From a virus: a stretch of DNA of 29,999 nucleotides. The number at the start of each line of letters is the position of its first letter. Position 1 is the first letter of the stretch. Location of the stretch: positions 1 to 29,999 of the IMG/VR virus record IMGVR_UViG_3300027963_000237. The stretch is one strand, 5' to 3'. This document shows positions 13,029 through 29,661 of this stretch, piece by piece. A program made the translations under genes and the position numbers. The notes under the pieces were generated by a model. That model saw only the letters and a list, made by a program, of their open reading frames with translations. It was not told the DNA's origin and did no database searches.

Positions 13029-14579
13029 TTACAAACTTGTCTTAACTCTATCTCTGATTTCGGTTAATGTGGTTGTATTCATAAACTCACCATCTACATA
13101 GATTGGTTGTAACAATCCTGTGTCTTCGGTGTTCCAAGTAACCTTATCATACAAACCAATTTTGCCAGAATATAATTCTTCAACACACAAAAGACCTGTT
13201 GCCGATTTCTTAGTTCCATCATCTGTGATCGGATCTTTGAAGATCTCACGGGATTCAACCCAGTAGTTCTCATATTTACCGAACTTCTCTGTAACAATAT
13301 GACGACCAACCATACCATCATAAGGTTCGGATTTAACCTCAACATAGGTCGCTTTCATCGCGAATCCGAATGTATCACGAGTGTTATACTGATAGGTGAA
13401 TGATCCGATACCGAGTACCACGTTTGTTGAAGCAAATCCTTTGGATTCCAAACGACGGCAGATTTCATCGGCTCTCTCAATCGTAATTGAGTCACCATAG
13501 ATTGCTCCGATGTGTGGATCCAATACTTTGTAACCTTGTTCATTGATTGTTCCACCGAATACGTCCCAAAGCAACTCAATTACTCCTTTGTAGGCAGGAT
13601 ACAAAGCAATCTTGGTATGATACATATCTGGACCAGTATTCAAACCGCAGAGGATGTCAGCAGGATTTCCTGAGTCAGGACGAATAACCAACTTACCATC
13701 ACGAGCCATAATCTCTTCTTTCAAAGTAACAACATGTTCAGTACATACTTTCCATAAGTCCCAAGTATCAGATACAACTGATAAAATACCTGTTGGATAT
13801 GTTTCTAATAATCTACGGAAGGTACCAATCTCATCGTCTTTCCCACCTGAACACATTACTGAGTGTTCCGTTGCAGGAACTGAACCACAAATAAATTCGG
13901 TTTCACCATAGTACTTACGAGCACCATAGATGGTTGGTAATGAATCTGATCCTGAAAAAGAAGTTAAGTGTCCAAGTCCTGATGACACAACGGCATCAAC
14001 AGAGTCCATTCCCCTCATTGAGAAATCGTGACCTTGCCAATCAACAAACCAAGAGTTTGATGGGTCCGTCTTTTCCATCCAACCATTTAATACTTTTCTG
14101 TATTGTCGGGCAATTGTTGCCGAGGTCATAGGTTTCCACAACAGATTTGAAAGAATTGTTTCCAAATAATTGGTAATCCAATAAAAATCCGGATGTGTAT
14201 TGTAGATGGTTAATACGGGTACTTTAATTGGTGCTAAAGTCCCTTCCTCCAAAGATTTTACTTTAATAGGTAAGTACCCCAAATCGTGCAACGCTTCAAT
14301 GTGTGAAGTGTCATACGGCATACCCAAATACATTGAGAACTCTTTACGAATTTCTTCCACAACCTGTTCTTTTGGTTTTGAGAAGAATCCGTCCATAAAC
14401 ATTTCGTGAATTTGTTTCATCACCATTTGTGTTCCAAACACAACGACATCATTACAACCTTTCGGTGCGTGTTTGTTACTTCTTGGTGTAAAATTAGAAT
14501 ACACTAATGTTGTACCCTTTGGGTATTGCAGATGGTGTCCGGTTTTGTACCCATCAGTTAGTAAAAAAGGATTTATCAT
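13029..14579 (-). CDS. nadV: Nicotinamide phosphoribosyltransferase (NadV/Nampt-like, possibly Namat)
   Basis: This 516-residue protein is full length for the family (human NAMPT 491). Landmarks: TDGYKTGH near residue 8, SNFTPRSNKH, HDFSMRG (184-190), a substrate Asp at about 212 in SGSDSLP, the catalytic-type His239 in TEHSV, and RPDSGNP (300-306) for phosphate binding. Nampt joins nicotinamide and PRPP to make NMN. In phage NARP1 modules the Nampt-like enzyme (Namat) instead joins nicotinamide to ADP-ribose pyrophosphate, giving NAD+ directly. The prs-like gene upstream on the same strand supports such a module; sequence alone cannot choose between the two substrates. It has its own host-type promoter and a terminator. 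Confidence 0.93.
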   Translation of the reverse strand: MINPFLLTDGYKTGHHLQYPKGTTLVYSNFTPRSNKHAPKGCNDVVVFGTQMVMKQIHEMFMDGFFSKPKEQVVEEIRKEFSMYLGMPYDTSHIEALHDLGYLPIKVKSLEEGTLAPIKVPVLTIYNTHPDFYWITNYLETILSNLLWKPMTSATIARQYRKVLNGWMEKTDPSNSWFVDWQGHDFSMRGMDSVDAVVSSGLGHLTSFSGSDSLPTIYGARKYYGETEFICGSVPATEHSVMCSGGKDDEIGTFRRLLETYPTGILSVVSDTWDLWKVCTEHVVTLKEEIMARDGKLVIRPDSGNPADILCGLNTGPDMYHTKIALYPAYKGVIELLWDVFGGTINEQGYKVLDPHIGAIYGDSITIERADEICRRLESKGFASTNVVLGIGSFTYQYNTRDTFGFAMKATYVEVKSEPYDGMVGRHIVTEKFGKYENYWVESREIFKDPITDDGTKKSATGLLCVEELYSGKIGLYDKVTWNTEDTGLLQPIYVDGEFMNTTTLTEIRDRVKTSL

Positions 14580-14598
14580 AATTTGTTTTTTAACGTTA

Positions 14599-14629
14599 CA
14601 AAGTTAATGTTTATTTTTTAGAATTCAAA
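14599..14629 (-). promoter_or_regulatory. Host-type promoter for nadV
   Basis: Minus-strand TTTG (14626-14629), 19 bp, TAACTTTG (14599-14606); 19 bases to the ATG. The -33 box lies inside the 3' end of the HAD gene. Confidence 0.7.
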
Positions 14630-15052
14630 ATATTTTTGACTTTTTCCCCGAATAATATATGTTGCGGATTCCAGGATATTCAAAGATTCGTTCAACCCTG
14701 CTCTATCATCAATAAAGATGTTAGCATAAACTTTTCCGTTCTTACCATATGGTAAGTCAATTGGAGTTTGGTTAATTGAATCAATCTCTAACTCTTTAGA
14801 GGTACAATAAGATTTAATCTCATCATATCTTTCAGAATTACATGCGGTGAAGATAACAATGTAAGCACCGGTGTATTTTGCTGCTTTCAAAACACGTATA
14901 ACCCGATTGAAATCATTGTCGTACATTTTCCAAGGACTGATGGTGTCGTCAAAGTCACAGGCAATAATGATCTTGCCGTGTTGTTCCCATTCCGTAACCA
15001 ATCTATCCAAGAATGGTTTTGACTCGGGATTAGAGGTGAAATAATTTTCCAT
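14618..15052 (-). CDS. HAD-superfamily phosphatase-like protein
   Basis: A 144-residue protein with the HAD nucleophile motif DFDDT (Asp33, Asp35), a motif II-like IFTAC (about 68-72) and a C-terminal acidic pair in IFIDDRAG (about 113-120). This is a small HAD core with no obvious cap. Its ATG shares a base with the stop of the prs-like gene (TAATG), so the two are coupled, and nadV follows. A phosphatase acting on an NAD-related phosphate or cyclic phosphate would suit the neighbourhood, but its substrate cannot be read from sequence; a 5' nucleotidase or repair phosphatase are alternatives. Confidence 0.8.
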   Translation of the reverse strand: MENYFTSNPESKPFLDRLVTEWEQHGKIIIACDFDDTISPWKMYDNDFNRVIRVLKAAKYTGAYIVIFTACNSERYDEIKSYCTSKELEIDSINQTPIDLPYGKNGKVYANIFIDDRAGLNESLNILESATYIIRGKSQKYFEF

Positions 15053-16011
15053 TAAAATACTTTATGTTGTTTTACTAAACTATGAATTGTTTTATGTCTT
15101 GAGAAGGTATTCACTATGGTATCATCCTGAATGTCTTTAACACTATTAGTACAATAGATACCATCAAAATATTCGGATAATAAATCAAATCCATAACTGA
15201 ATATACCATGAGTTACCACCAAATAGTTTTTACCATAATGTTCTGGTTTTACCGAACTTGATAATTTTCTCCTCTCTTCAATTGTTTTTGCGATTTCAAT
15301 AAACGTCCTAGCACCATCACAAATATCATCAAAGATAAAGAAATCTTTGTCAGCATCATTTACGGACATCGGTACATCGGTATAATCAATCTTACCTGTT
15401 TCTAAATTACGATGTTTAGATGATATGATTACCTCATACGGATATTTTGTTTTTTCAACAACATTGAAAACTTTTTTTAACGCACCAGCATCAGGTGACA
15501 CAAATCTTACCTTTTCAAAATTATCAACACTCCATCTTTCAAATCCTTTTGAGATAAAATAATCTTTAAGTGCCGTGGTAACCAAATCCGTATTATCTAC
15601 TTTTTGGAAATTGTTGATACACGCTTCTAATACATCAGAATGTGGGTCCAAAATTATTACCTTAGTGTAGTTTTGTAAATTGATAATCGGCGCAATAACA
15701 TGTTTAATGTAGTTAATACCACCATCTGAGAATTTTCGATCACTACGACCGCCCAAACAATACGGAATGTATAGTGAGATATCTTTAACACCAACCTCAC
15801 GGAGTGCCTGAGTCGCACAAATGATAAGTTCCAAATCTTCAAATGAATTAAATCTTGATTTGATGACGATACTTGAGGGTTTAAGGGTTTCAAATTTGTT
15901 ATAACCACTCTCAACCAATCTGAACGATTGTTGTCCGTCAGGGAAACGACTAATCTCATAGTTGAATGAAAAAACGTCGTTCGGATTTACTAAGTTTAAT
16001 GTTTCTGCCAT
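15052..16011 (-). CDS. prs: Ribose-phosphate pyrophosphokinase-like enzyme (Prs, possibly Adps)
   Basis: The ATG at 16011 (MAETLNLVNP) is preferred over 16029 because the host-type box sits at 16019-16026. The 319-residue protein has the family layout: FPDGQQSF, the IPYCLGGRSDRKFSDGG loop where cellular Prs has YARQDR, DPHSDVLEA, SPDAGALKK and the PRPP loop IFDDICDGARTF in place of the usual DDxxDTGGT. Prs makes PRPP from ribose 5-phosphate and ATP; in NARP1 the homolog Adps pyrophosphorylates ADP-ribose. The altered loops are compatible with either. It is the first gene of a prs-HAD coupled pair, with nadV next. Confidence 0.9.
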   Translation of the reverse strand: MAETLNLVNPNDVFSFNYEISRFPDGQQSFRLVESGYNKFETLKPSSIVIKSRFNSFEDLELIICATQALREVGVKDISLYIPYCLGGRSDRKFSDGGINYIKHVIAPIINLQNYTKVIILDPHSDVLEACINNFQKVDNTDLVTTALKDYFISKGFERWSVDNFEKVRFVSPDAGALKKVFNVVEKTKYPYEVIISSKHRNLETGKIDYTDVPMSVNDADKDFFIFDDICDGARTFIEIAKTIEERRKLSSSVKPEHYGKNYLVVTHGIFSYGFDLLSEYFDGIYCTNSVKDIQDDTIVNTFSRHKTIHSLVKQHKVF

Positions 16012-16018
16012 AATAATA

Positions 16019-16050
16019 CAAAGATACAAAAAAGGGTTTGGAAAACCAAA
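16019..16050 (-). promoter_or_regulatory. Host-type promoter for prs
   Basis: Minus-strand TTTG (16047-16050), 20 bp, TATCTTTG (16019-16026), seven bases before the ATG. The -33 box lies inside the terminator stem at 16033-16054. Confidence 0.75.
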
Positions 16051-16054
16051 CCCT
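16028..16054 (-). terminator. Intrinsic terminator after SPFH gene
   Basis: AGGGTTTGG pairs perfectly with CCAAACCCT around a four-base loop; a T-run follows on the minus strand. It overlaps the prs promoter. Confidence 0.8.
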
Positions 16055-16072: not shown

Positions 16073-16930
16073 TTATTTTACGTTATACATCATATTCGTT
16101 CCTGAACCAAGTTGTGTGGAAGGTAAAACACCATTCCATTTGTTAATCCACATTTGTTGTAATAACATAGGTGTTAATGTTGATTGTTTAAGTTTATTTG
16201 CTTCAGCCTCAGCCCGTGCTTGGGTTAACATAGCTTGAGCGTTACCCTCCGCAGTTGCAACTTTAATTTTTGCTTCAGCTTGCGCTGTTTTAACCCTGTT
16301 TTCGGCAGTAAGACCAAGTTGGATTGCGTTATTCTTTGCTATGATGGCATCCTTGAATTGTTTTGGATAACCTAGATTTGAAGTCATTTGACTGATGATA
16401 AATCCTTCAGGAACTAACGCACTATCCAAAAGATGACGAACTTTATTCTCAAAGTTCTGTCTTTGAGATACCATTTCATCAGCGGTGTATGAGTTGGCAA
16501 TCATTCTAAACGCGTCATATATTGTAGTCTTTAAGAATCCTTCTTCAATTGAAGATAAATCTCTACGATATTTTCCAAAGATATAAGGTACTTTTTCACG
16601 TTTAACCGAATAGTTAATGATTGGACTAACGTGGAACTCGGACCCGTCTTTTGAATTCACAACAAATGATTCATCCATATCTTCAGTCTTTGTGTATTCT
16701 TTATGTTGTACGAATGTCGGGAATTCATAAATTTTCTGACTAAATGGGTTGTAAAAAGCGATACCTGTTACTTCGGTAATATCGTCAATACCTTTTCCAT
16801 CACCATACAAATTTACTTTTACACCTACGTGACCTGCGTCAATACGTTCACAAGAGTTTGAGAACATGATTAACAATAGTAATAGACCTCCAAGACCTAA
16901 TACAATTTTGATTTTTGAAATTGTTTCCAT
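16073..16930 (-). CDS. SPFH/prohibitin-like membrane protein
   Basis: A 285-residue protein with an N-terminal membrane segment (about residues 8-25), then the SPFH domain beginning DAGHVGVKV (about 32-40) and reaching about residue 195, and a long Ala/Glu/Lys-rich coiled coil (about 200-245). This is the standard prohibitin layout; such proteins form large rings on membranes. Phage copies are known but their role is unclear. It follows the RNA-ligase-domain membrane protein by seven bases, so the two membrane proteins may cooperate. A Cys in SNSCERI after the hydrophobic stretch could act as a lipobox, which would anchor it by lipid instead. Confidence 0.85.
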   Translation of the reverse strand: METISKIKIVLGLGGLLLLLIMFSNSCERIDAGHVGVKVNLYGDGKGIDDITEVTGIAFYNPFSQKIYEFPTFVQHKEYTKTEDMDESFVVNSKDGSEFHVSPIINYSVKREKVPYIFGKYRRDLSSIEEGFLKTTIYDAFRMIANSYTADEMVSQRQNFENKVRHLLDSALVPEGFIISQMTSNLGYPKQFKDAIIAKNNAIQLGLTAENRVKTAQAEAKIKVATAEGNAQAMLTQARAEAEANKLKQSTLTPMLLQQMWINKWNGVLPSTQLGSGTNMMYNVK

Positions 16931-16937
16931 AATTTAT

Positions 16938-17636
16938 TTAATTGTTTTCTTGTTTGTTTGACAATTGTATCAGTACGAATTTTACGATTTCGTTAAACGT
17001 CAATCCTATCATTCCTATACCGATTAGACACACAATCACACCAGCAAACACTAGTAAATTGTAAGGTTGGTTTAGTAATTGAGTTCCCCAAGAAATAACC
17101 TGTAGTCCGAAACAGATTGCTGATATGGTTAGGACAACATTTAAGAATCCTTTACCAATTTTTTTAATGTTTTCTTTCATATATGAATTTATTTTAATTT
17201 TGTAGCTCTCTATACCCAAATAATCGGTAACATCTTCACCTTCTTGAATTAGAATTGCATTATCATAAGGACCAACCTGTAATTGTTTTCCCCAAGGTTG
17301 ATCAGAATAACCAATCTTTATCTCATCTTCATTTTCCAAGATTGAAATGGGAAGAAGAAGTCCTTGTGAAATCTGACCACGTAACTTAACCGTTCTCAAA
17401 CGAAACCCTTCTTGGTCTCCCATCTTCTTATATGAAGATTTTCTTAGAAACTCAAACTCAGGTTCAATCGGTAGAAATGAATCCACTTCAAAATATACCG
17501 CAAAATCACCTGGCTTGAACTCATCTCGTTTGGTAACCACTTTCCACCCACCAATGGTGCAGATGTCTAAAGAATCAGCATTGAAATGTTTTTCAACATT
17601 ATCAACATAAACAATTTTTGCTAATTTTCTTTCCAT
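16938..17636 (-). CDS. RNA-ligase N-terminal domain fused to a two-TM membrane region
   Basis: Residues 1 to about 147 match the N-terminal, OB-like domain of the DRB0094-type RNA ligase family: MERKLAKIVYVDNVEKH, GWKVVTKRDEFKPGD, AVYFEVDSFLP, FRLRTVKLRGQISQGLLLPI. In ligases a nucleotidyltransferase domain with KxDG follows. Here that domain is absent and the protein instead has two hydrophobic spans (about 165-183 and 192-213) and a short tail. It thus cannot be a ligase by itself; it may tether an RNA-binding domain to the membrane. It lies between a small two-TM protein gene and the SPFH gene with gaps of five and seven bases. Confidence 0.8.
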   Translation of the reverse strand: MERKLAKIVYVDNVEKHFNADSLDICTIGGWKVVTKRDEFKPGDFAVYFEVDSFLPIEPEFEFLRKSSYKKMGDQEGFRLRTVKLRGQISQGLLLPISILENEDEIKIGYSDQPWGKQLQVGPYDNAILIQEGEDVTDYLGIESYKIKINSYMKENIKKIGKGFLNVVLTISAICFGLQVISWGTQLLNQPYNLLVFAGVIVCLIGIGMIGLTFNEIVKFVLIQLSNKQENN

Positions 17637-17809: not shown

Positions 17810-17841
17810 CAAAGGTAATGACAATGAATTAAAGATACAAA
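17810..17841 (-). promoter_or_regulatory. Host-type promoter for the membrane-protein operon
   Basis: Minus-strand TTTG (17838-17841), 20 bp, TACCTTTG (17810-17817), 15 bases before the ATG at 17794. Confidence 0.75.
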
Positions 17842-25110: not shown

Positions 25111-26157
25111 TCATAATTTCATGAACTCGGGTTTAAGTTGTTTCCAAATGATGTGATCATATGTTTTTCCATCCCACATATTGAACAGAACACCTTGTAG
25201 TTCTTTTGGGTGTGTTAAAACAAAATCAACATATTCTCGTCTAGTTGGTTCCAAATCCTCATTACCATATCTATATTCGGAATATAACCCCAAACACTTG
25301 GTTTTGATGTTGTTGTATGAAGTTATTAACTCCTCGGAATATGATGAAACTTTATTATAGAATTCATCAGGAACATCCTTAATGATTGTTAATAGGTCAT
25401 CCCCCTTTGATAGACATTCCCAAACCGAAGTTGTGGATAATCCTGTCATTATCTTGTGAAGACGAATATATTCAGCACCCTTAACCTTCATTCGGTCCCC
25501 ATTGGAGAACCTGACAACGAAACCCTCAGCGTCGTCTCTAACCATTTGTTTTAATACTGAATAGTCCGATATACTATCATATTTTTTAACAACTTTAAAT
25601 CCGAGATTGTTGATTAAGTTCTTCAATCTAACGTCAACACCTTCACCATACAAATCAACCTCATATCCAGTTTCAGTGTTTATCACACCAAGTAATATAA
25701 CATCTTCAAAATCATAAGAACAAACTATTCTGTTTTCAGGATATATTATCTCAAATAAATAAGTGTAATCTTTATGTAATTTGTTGTAATCGTAGTTAGA
25801 TAACATTTCCATACCTTTCACCGCTTGGTCAGAAGTGAATGAACCACGAGTTGCCATAACCCAATTCCCATCATAGTAGAACAATAATCCCAATGAACCA
25901 TCCATTTTCTCCCAGACTTCAAAATCAGAAGTTGGGGTATGTTTTCCTTCCTCAATATTGAAGAATTTTTTGAATGGTCTTGCAATAATCTTACCATCAG
26001 AGTTGGTTACCAAACCTCGGCACATCAATGTAATGTCATCCCACATCCCTTGAAATTGCACATTTTCGCAGTAATTCCATATTGTAAGGTCTAATGTAGG
26101 ATGGGCTTGATTATAAAGTAGTCCTTTTTCTAAATAAGATTGTAATATTGTATTCAT
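25111..26157 (-). CDS. rnlA: RNA ligase, T4 Rnl1 family
   Basis: The ATG at 26157 (MNTILQSYLE) is chosen since a longer frame would start inside the promoter. The 348-residue protein has the nucleotidyltransferase motifs in order: a CRGLV stretch (46-50), motif I EKMDGS with the adenylated Lys84, a motif III-like FEIIYPENRIV, motif IV EGFVVRF and motif V MKVKGAEY. T4 Rnl1 (374 aa) rejoins tRNA cut by host anticodon nucleases, so this is a likely counter-defence repair enzyme. A P-loop kinase at 28602 could supply the end-healing step. It has a host-type promoter five bases before the ATG. Confidence 0.9.
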   Translation of the reverse strand: MNTILQSYLEKGLLYNQAHPTLDLTIWNYCENVQFQGMWDDITLMCRGLVTNSDGKIIARPFKKFFNIEEGKHTPTSDFEVWEKMDGSLGLLFYYDGNWVMATRGSFTSDQAVKGMEMLSNYDYNKLHKDYTYLFEIIYPENRIVCSYDFEDVILLGVINTETGYEVDLYGEGVDVRLKNLINNLGFKVVKKYDSISDYSVLKQMVRDDAEGFVVRFSNGDRMKVKGAEYIRLHKIMTGLSTTSVWECLSKGDDLLTIIKDVPDEFYNKVSSYSEELITSYNNIKTKCLGLYSEYRYGNEDLEPTRREYVDFVLTHPKELQGVLFNMWDGKTYDHIIWKQLKPEFMKL

Positions 26158-26162
26158 AGGTA

Positions 26163-26194
26163 CAAAGATAAATAAAAAAAGGTTTGTTTCCAAA
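26163..26194 (-). promoter_or_regulatory. Host-type promoter for RNA ligase
   Basis: Minus-strand TTTG (26191-26194), 20 bp, TATCTTTG (26163-26170). The -33 box is inside the terminator stem of the upstream gene. Confidence 0.75.
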
Positions 26195-28601: not shown

Positions 28602-28997
28602 TTACAACTTCACTTCAAATCTATTTTTCATTACTTCTAACTTGTCTTCAGGTACACCATGAGTGTTTACACCACCATGTCTATTCTCAACAATGACTGA
28701 ATGTACTTGGTAACCATACTCTTCGGCTAACTTATAATATGCATCCATCTCCCATTCCTGAGTAAAGGTGTTGGAAACAACTATTGGTGAGTGTTTATAT
28801 ATCATTAGAAATTCAACCTCTTCCTGACACCACTTGTGTGCATCTTTAGTCTTTGATGGTTCAAACTTGTAGTTACCATCTCGGTCAACAAAGAACATAT
28901 CAGCCTCTTTATGACAATAGTCTTTATTCACTATCATTTTAGCTAATGTTGATTTACCTGAACCTGGTGTTCCGCGTAATAGGAGTATTTGTTTCAT
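28602..28997 (-). CDS. P-loop kinase, polynucleotide-kinase-like (AAA_33/N4BP2 type)
   Basis: A 131-residue ATPase with Walker A GTPGSGKST (residues 9-17), an EADMFFVDRDGNYKF stretch, SNTFTQEWEMDAYYK and the conserved NRHGGVNTHGVP followed by MKNRFE. This set matches the small kinase family related to the 5'-kinase domain of polynucleotide kinases. It overlaps the metallophosphoesterase gene by ATGA, and an RNA ligase is encoded 2.5 kb away, so a role in RNA end-healing is plausible. The specific substrate is not shown by the sequence. Confidence 0.8.
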   Translation of the reverse strand: MKQILLLRGTPGSGKSTLAKMIVNKDYCHKEADMFFVDRDGNYKFEPSKTKDAHKWCQEEVEFLMIYKHSPIVVSNTFTQEWEMDAYYKLAEEYGYQVHSVIVENRHGGVNTHGVPEDKLEVMKNRFEVKL

Positions 28998-29661
28998 AGT
29001 TTTTTCTCGTGATGATCTTTAGGCAATGTTAATTTTTTAATTGGTTGATTTCTCATAAGGTTTAAGATCCCGTGAATTTCAATAGGATACATTCCATTCC
29101 CATCAACACCAACATCCATAGCCTTACCATCAGCAATTCTCAAATTCGGTGGTAAGTGTACGTGTCCGTGTAAGTGAATGTTTCCTTCATTCATCCCGTC
29201 CCATGAACAAATCGGATAATGGCAACAAATTAAAGTATGTCTGTCTATTTTGTTACCTGGATGTTTTACTCTAAGGTCAATCATCAAGTAATCCTGAGTG
29301 GAAGTGAATAAAGATTGAATATCACCTTTGTTTCTTCGGATATGGTGATCGTGATTACCATATGTTAAGTGAATGTTCTTACAATTGATCCTGTTTCTAA
29401 ACTCCTCAATCATTTCAAATCCTCCAAAAGACCAATCTCCTAAGTGAATAAGAATATCATTTTCATGTACAATCTCATTGATGTTATTTACCAATGTATC
29501 ATTCATATGACTTAATGACTTGAAGTCTCTAGTTAAGTTCTCGGCTTGGTTCCACTTTGTAGTAGCTCTACAAATATTGCTATGCGAGTAGTGAGCTACG
29601 TGTCCGAGGTGAACCACAATCTAGGACTGTGCACCCCGGAACTCTTAATTTCAATTTTCAT
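28994..29661 (-). pseudogene. Calcineurin-like metallophosphoesterase, frame broken in the DxH motif
   Basis: The C-terminal frame carries most motifs: GDWSFGG, YGNHDHH, CHYPICSWDG and HGHVHLP. The expected N-terminal DxH metal-binding motif is split. From the ATG at 29661 the frame reads MKIEIKSSGVHSPRLWFTSD, then T and TAG stop; the remaining motif HYSHSNICR lies in another frame. Family members have SDTHFGHxNI, so removing the five bases TAGCT (minus strand, about 29593-29597) would restore SDTHYSHSNI. The ATG at 29661 overlaps the HNH gene end by 11 bases. The only start in the long frame is a GTG at 29617, which lacks the first metal ligand. A sequencing error, a real null, or a recoding event are all possible. 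Confidence 0.75.

Follow-up and report, generated by a model that had tools for sequence, protein, structure and literature searches.

The 29,999-base stretch analysed here (the window) is the whole of the IMG/VR virus record IMGVR_UViG_3300027963_000237, probably a fragment of a larger genome, and it carries an operon that, judged from its predicted proteins, is almost certainly a nicotinamide adenine dinucleotide (NAD+) reconstitution system of the NARP1 type, built on the enzymes Adps and Namat. NARP1 itself is already known, in phages and in bacteria; what is provisionally new is the link to it of a third gene, encoding a small HAD phosphatase. We give a probability of roughly 0.87 to the reading of the operon as a putative three-gene NARP1 module, leaving the exact substrate of the phosphatase aside. 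All three open reading frames are intact on the minus strand: an adps-like gene for a divergent Prs-superfamily enzyme of 319 amino acids (15052..16011), a gene for a capless HAD phosphatase of 144 amino acids, the proposed third component (14618..15052), and a namat-like gene of 516 amino acids (13029..14579). This is the arrangement described in an earlier sequence-only reading, which placed a Prs-like and a Nampt-like enzyme on one strand with a HAD phosphatase between them. The ATG of the HAD gene overlaps the adps stop codon (TAATG at 15052) and a gap of 38 bases lies between the HAD gene and namat; by their sequences, the three are real genes and not chance frames.

In the proposed pathway, a host defence NADase would split NAD+ into nicotinamide and ADP-ribose. 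Adps would then use ADP-ribose and pyrophosphate from ATP to make ADP-ribose pyrophosphate, and Namat would replace the pyrophosphate with nicotinamide, restoring NAD+ in two steps in total. This two-step chemistry has been shown in the literature for homologues, and for the window enzymes we infer it. The HAD protein would dephosphorylate an ADP-ribose derivative unusable by Adps, returning ADP-ribose to the pathway.

The strong evidence for NARP1 lies, as we read the sequences, in a motif of Namat and not in the loops of Adps. A 2026 structural paper (PMC12774641) describes a helix motif found only in Namat, GSX-Phi-X-Phi-X-Phi-TRD. Positions 3 and 7 of the motif are aromatic, and its aromatic residues make stacking contacts with the adenine of ADP-ribose pyrophosphate. 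The window protein has GSFTYQYNTRD in this selectivity-clamp helix (residues 392-402; 13374..13406, minus strand), an exact match to the Namat of Bacillus phage SPbetaL1. The same paper describes a clamp loop with either Arg, or Lys or Tyr followed by a stacking residue, the Lys version being Bas63-type. In the window protein this loop reads K36-H37 (14469..14474, minus strand); K36 aligns with Arg40 of SPbetaL1 Namat (9w5x), and H37 probably stacks on the adenine. Further, F186, R189, R300, D302, and H239 are invariant in a nine-sequence alignment, with Phe189, Arg192, Arg306, Asp308, and the catalytic His as their counterparts in the SPbetaL1 catalytic core, and the Nampt-like core is thus present. 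The protein matches PF04095 (E 3e-34), PF18127 (E 6e-8), and PHROG_448 (E 1e-188), and its closest solved sequence is 9w5x (513 bits, E 8e-153), which is identical to the SPbetaL1 Namat gene product; the best Nampt in the PDB reaches 201 bits, and Nampts stand at E 2e-58 or worse. A reading in terms of DNA arabinosylation, prompted by a fold match to AfhF, is contradicted by the Namat motif.

Phylogeny, which had been proposed as a check, agrees with the motif. The Namat/Nampt tree has a 100/100 branch dividing 27 rows from 5, with a bootstrap that is not fully settled; the window, SPbetaL1, and Felixounavirus Namats lie on one side and the Nampts of four NMNAT-bearing phages on the other. The latter do not have the clamp motif, a true Nampt reading, for example, GGALLQ...RD at this place. 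Of the 80 viral Namats nearest to that of the window, nearly all have the motif, and 62 of the 80 lie within about 5 kb of an Adps gene; several of the others are on short contigs. A rival account would be a simple NARP2-like salvage route, in which Prs makes phosphoribosyl pyrophosphate (PRPP), Nampt makes nicotinamide mononucleotide, and host enzymes complete NAD+. Indeed, Namat keeps about half of the activity of human Nampt on PRPP in vitro (PMC12774641), and the NCBIfam model NF006629 fails to separate Namat from Nampt. The window protein, however, has the exact Namat motif and no Nampt-type clamp region, and the window Adps falls under the Prs cut-off of TIGR01251. Because true Nampts are without the Namat motif at the clamp helix, plain salvage from ribose 5-phosphate and PRPP is disfavoured, and we regard it as very improbable. 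No NMNAT domain was found among the subset of proteins scanned from the window, itself a fragment.

The Adps of the window scores 78 bits against TIGR01251 (cut-off 113), compared with 106 for the validated SPbetaL1 Adps and 187 for true Prs. It matches PHROG_619 (E 5e-57) and solved Prs in the PDB (E 6e-12), and a 100/100 branch splits the Adps rows from true Prs, the latter being three near-identical Mucilaginibacter rows only. The sequence-only reading had taken two diverged Prs loops as a sign that the substrate is not ribose 5-phosphate. Both loops are present, LGGRSDRKFSDGG (15718..15756, minus strand; R89, D91, and R92 invariant in the alignment) and FDDICDGARTF (15301..15333, minus strand), where Bacillus Prs reads DDIIDTAGT, and the argument is sound in direction. 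Comparison with relatives nonetheless indicates that the loops are features of the family, not oddities of the window phage, and they are weak evidence alone: most of the NARP1 Adps listed have the form DD[IL]x..GGxTF, with DDMIRSGGSIV in Mucilaginibacter Prs. The proposal of a NARP1-like Adps/Namat pair is nevertheless borne out by the closest solved relative, the catalytic core, the clamp motif, the Adps-type loop, the tree position, and the gene linkage described below. As a separate observation, the 547-position profile PHROG_12872 matches the window Adps over 7-257 and the window Namat over 377-463, which suggests that some phages encode fused Adps-Namat proteins. Namat also appears in pieces elsewhere: in the IMG/VR record of locus L051 (G015:C1:352-2715) it is matched in two pieces inside one 799-amino-acid frame, as with an intein-like insertion, and in Prevotella phage Lak-A1 (MK250016.1 207997-210867) two pieces lie ~1.4 kb apart in an intron- or frame-like split.

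Comparison with described systems shows where the window operon differs. The SPbetaL1 NARP1 (PMC12774641) has homologous enzymes, with the Adps gene before Namat and a Namat 48.8% identical to that of the window by tblastn. Its two genes are adjacent with no HAD gene between them, its Adps is only about 26% identical to that of the window, and its Namat has Arg40 in place of the Lys-His clamp loop. The Namat of the NrsAB pair of Vibrio phage ICP1 is 47.6% identical to the window protein. According to the accessible part of PMC11559045, NrsAB are Adps/Namat homologues that genetics connects with overcoming Nezha, an NAD-depleting defence, and a Nezha host infected by NrsAB-expressing phage has higher NAD+; that part describes no HAD component, unlike the window. 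The Paenibacillus foliorum NARP1 pair was tested as two genes (PMC12774641). In Mycobacterium phage DyoEdafos (PMC13232231, a preprint) the NARP1 operon holds an extra enzyme supplying ADP-ribose, the inserted glycosidase RyDEP, which cleaves cyclic ADP-ribose signals, whereas the extra gene of the window encodes a HAD phosphatase. A survey from 2022 of NAD/ADP-ribose systems in viruses, in the portion available, reports NadV together with NadM/NadR and, as a separate case, an RNA-repair HAD alongside a sirtuin; that portion does not describe a HAD of the window type with NadV. A phosphatase is unmentioned in the NARP1 literature searched, the founding Nature 2024 paper lying outside that search.

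HAD homologues occur in only 27 annotated phage records. Among the records opened, the HAD gene lies beside Adps and Namat, as in the window, in the crAss-like and Vibrio/Aeromonas phages DAC17, cr126_1, cr111_1, VPT02, PhAER-3, and Phass-1, although the gene order varies and the annotations call the HAD product a hypothetical protein or a phosphoheptose isomerase; in Lak-A1 it adjoins Adps. We scanned IMG/VR with a profile built from eight NARP1-linked phage HAD proteins, a choice that biases the phage linkage count, and found 85 loci forming 51 clusters at 80% identity; in 40 of the clusters Adps and/or Namat lie no more than 5 kb from HAD. One further record has both Adps and Namat elsewhere. 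The phage orders are Adps-HAD-Namat, Namat-HAD-Adps, and Adps-Namat-HAD, and the genes often overlap or lie a few bases apart. The bacterial genome scan is a fairer test, as its profile was made from phage HAD proteins only, with no bacterial sequence. It gave 64 HAD loci, with Adps and Namat both within 5 kb in 44; where genomes are several megabases long, such adjacency would seldom arise by chance. Many Bacteroidota have the genes as Adps-HAD-Namat, several Flavobacteriaceae as Namat-HAD-Adps, and some Paenibacillus and Cohnella as HAD-Adps-Namat; P. psychroresistens, related to P. foliorum, has an NrtR-family regulator, HAD, Adps, Namat, PnuC, and a NadR-like gene in that order. This recurrence in phages and bacteria does not fit the idea, left by the sequence-only reading, of the HAD gene as a bystander, and the HAD protein very probably belongs functionally to the NAD+ pathway.

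Several observations weigh against a general three-gene pathway or against an ADP-ribose substrate for HAD. HAD is present in just 12 of the 42 phage clusters anchored on Namat, and in 295 genomes sampled from a single bacterial class it accompanies 1 of 11 Namat loci; others of these loci have metallophosphoesterase, KptA, ADP-ribosylglycohydrolase, or macro genes instead. For that sample we took the regions round Namat-like matches in place of a direct HAD profile search, in which 5 genomes matched with only some candidates scored. That search was nearly empty because HAD genes are numerous and a first look scores only some of the candidates. Conversely, 11 of the 51 phage HAD clusters are without NARP1. 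HAD also lies near a true Nampt (GGALLQKVDRD) and a true Prs at the Mucilaginibacter loci L231, L245, and L247, with an NMNAT/Nudix-like gene upstream at L231 and L245, and beside NadD/NadE-like genes at L215; a HAD substrate restricted to ADP-ribose leaves these contexts unexplained. Fold matches at Z 7-8, discussed below, leave the function of the modelled protein unproven. HAD is therefore a common accessory of NARP1 and not obligatory, given its presence in only 12 of 42 clusters, and the family is not confined to NARP1. We also considered whether HAD and macro or metallophosphoesterase genes exclude one another. Among the 42 Namat-anchored clusters, HAD was observed with macro 0 times against 2.6 expected (p 0.04), and across the full 115 clusters, in which HAD-anchored sampling introduces a bias, p ranged from 0.006 to 0.07; these statistics ignore shared ancestry and multiple tests, and we rejected the exclusion as a weak tendency.

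The HAD protein has an intact predicted active site. Motif I contains the nucleophile and the acid/base, D33-F-D35 (14948..14956, minus strand), and motif IV is D115-D116 (14705..14710, minus strand), with K107 as motif III; D33, D35, K107, D115, and D116 are invariant in 42 sequences and T69 is nearly so. The AlphaFold model (pLDDT 93.3) is capless and includes all catalytic residues. Its nearest solved relative is the capless HAD BT0820 (PDB 2OBB; profile E 9e-10, fold Z 11.2), but the two are 23% identical. Among its fold relatives, the best characterised are T4 Pnkp 3'-phosphatase (Z 8.0) and, at Z 6.9, a phage pentose-1,5-diphosphate phosphatase; gene context is more informative on function than these matches. 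The PHROG_1238 label phosphoheptose isomerase, a SIS-domain function, looks like a misnomer, HAD catalytic motifs and a HAD fold being found instead. Membership in the RNA-repair family PF18143 (HAD_SAK_2) was likewise rejected, with 0 of 8 HAD members matching at E up to 1; a neighbouring protein at locus L116 does match it.

The resemblance to Pnkp phosphatase domains raises the question of whether HAD belongs to a phage RNA-repair island, as a phosphatase of RNA 3' or 2' ends, and merely adjoins NARP1. The window does encode a T4 Rnl1-type RNA ligase (25111-26193) and a PHA02142 OB-fold protein resembling an RNA-ligase N terminus (16938-17636). The HAD gene, however, tightly overlaps Adps and Namat genes in distant phages and in bacterial chromosomes, and an NrtR-family regulator gene commonly precedes the bacterial operon, so that we consider an RNA-end phosphatase quite unlikely.

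Among explanations of HAD, action on a phosphorylated ADP-ribose is the one that we favour, at somewhat less than even odds. We propose an ADP-ribose derivative because NARP1 operons hold macro, NADAR, ADP-ribosylglycohydrolase, KptA, and metallophosphoesterase genes. NADP+ cleavage yields 2'-phospho-ADP-ribose, which would be one candidate substrate. Others would be ADP-ribose 1''-phosphate or a cyclic phosphate, formed in RNA repair, by NAD phosphorolysis, or as the donor decays. According to PMC9503650, KptA produces ADP-ribose cyclic phosphate and RES-type enzymes produce ADP-ribose 1''-phosphate. The main rival is that HAD is a pyrophosphatase or AMP phosphatase that clears by-products and so pulls NAD+ synthesis forward. 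Pyrophosphate is released by Namat, Nampt, NadD, NadE, and NMNAT and AMP by Adps, Prs, and NadE, one or the other being common to all of these enzymes, and by-product removal explains better why HAD is found close to a true Nampt and a true Prs in Mucilaginibacter and to the NadD/NadE-like genes of L215. On the other hand, the macro, NADAR, and ADP-ribosylglycohydrolase genes of sister operons indicate ADP-ribose derivatives. Inorganic pyrophosphatase is, moreover, already abundant in cells, and on balance we think by-product removal rather unlikely.

The remainder of the window bears on expression and host. With TTTG-N18-24-TAnnTTTG as the Bacteroidota-type promoter consensus, the window has 10 copies against 2.8 expected, and 10 were reached in 0 of 100 shuffles; this enrichment lends support to a Bacteroidota host. 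One copy, TTTG-N20-TATCTTTG, lies immediately upstream of adps (16019..16050) and another, TTTG-N19-TAACTTTG, immediately upstream of namat (14599..14629), and further examples are at 17810-17841 and 26163-26194, all on the minus strand. A host-type promoter had been claimed for each transcript. The consensus does precede two predicted transcripts, adps-HAD and namat, but the HAD gene has none of its own. A terminator-like hairpin read from the sequence, GGGTTTGG-TTTT-CCAAACCC-TTTTTT (16028..16053, minus strand), lies between adps and the Band-7/SPFH gene directly upstream (16073-16930). The RNA ligase, the OB-fold protein, and a metallophosphoesterase (28994-29617), whose family is also seen near other NARP1 loci, form an RNA-repair set in the same phage. 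The window carries a tail-fibre gene; it had no match in a near-identity search of a phage collection and none in Rfam. KptA, macro, NADAR, ADP-ribosylglycohydrolase, and PF15891 families were searched for in the window and not found.

Such genes are frequent around NARP1 elsewhere. Independent phage loci have PF15891 (39), Band-7 (24), macro (20), and NADAR (10) neighbours as well as metallophosphoesterases. The PF15891 gene, nucleoside 2-deoxyribosyltransferase-like, is mostly one or two genes from NARP1 (for example, L116:3879-4352) and could encode another enzyme acting on ADP-ribose derivatives. An NrtR-family regulator, of a family that also covers the arabinose regulator AraR, is present at 38 of the 64 bacterial HAD loci, and bacterial NARP1 neighbourhoods also hold ADP-ribosylglycohydrolase, NADAR, macro, KptA, and metallophosphoesterase genes. 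In the bacterial operons L261, L267, and L268 a metallophosphoesterase gene lies between Adps and Namat, adjoining both in L261. L267 and L268 have KptA (Tpt1, PF01885) within NrtR-Adps...Namat operons, and L268 also NADAR and macro, which suggests recycling of KptA by-products. Separately, L248 (a Lachnospiraceae metagenome-assembled genome), L205 (Clostridium tagluense), and L008 (Phass-1) combine NARP1 genes with a nicotinamidase-like gene, and L248 and L205 also have a NAD synthase-like gene; a deamidated variant leading from nicotinate to nicotinate adenine dinucleotide for NadE is conceivable.

Ordinary bacterial chromosomes thus have NARP1 next to KptA, ADP-ribosylglycohydrolase, and NADAR genes, and in many cases an NrtR-family regulator too, which also bears on what the module does for the phage. 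It might be a real NARP1 that recycles NAD+ spent by the phage's own NAD-consuming reactions and does not defeat a host NADase. Phage NARP1 has, however, been shown to counter NAD-depleting defences (PMC12774641, PMC11559045), and the window, only a fragment, showed no recognisable NAD-consuming enzyme. We consider recycling of the phage's own NAD+ unlikely; counter-defence is probably the main role of the module in the window phage.

In the NARP1 literature searched, the pathway has so far been described as consisting of two enzymes, and HAD is a directly testable candidate for a third component. The recurrence of HAD in crAss-like, Vibrio, Aeromonas, Lak, and uncultivated phages and in Bacteroidota and Paenibacillaceae chromosomes means that the pathway may handle more than free ADP-ribose. 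A broader and more doubtful possibility, which we offer tentatively, is that HAD is an undescribed family of ADP-ribose-phosphate phosphatases making NARP1 a general recycling hub, with the bacterial operon under an NrtR-family regulator serving housekeeping NAD+ recycling. If true, this hub would dephosphorylate ADP-ribose phosphates from NADP+ cleavage, KptA-type RNA repair, and NAD phosphorolysis and then rebuild NAD+. The bacterial loci suggest that some Bacteroidota have NARP1 in the chromosome as an operon for NAD+ recycling, which is relevant to the source from which phages acquired the pathway.

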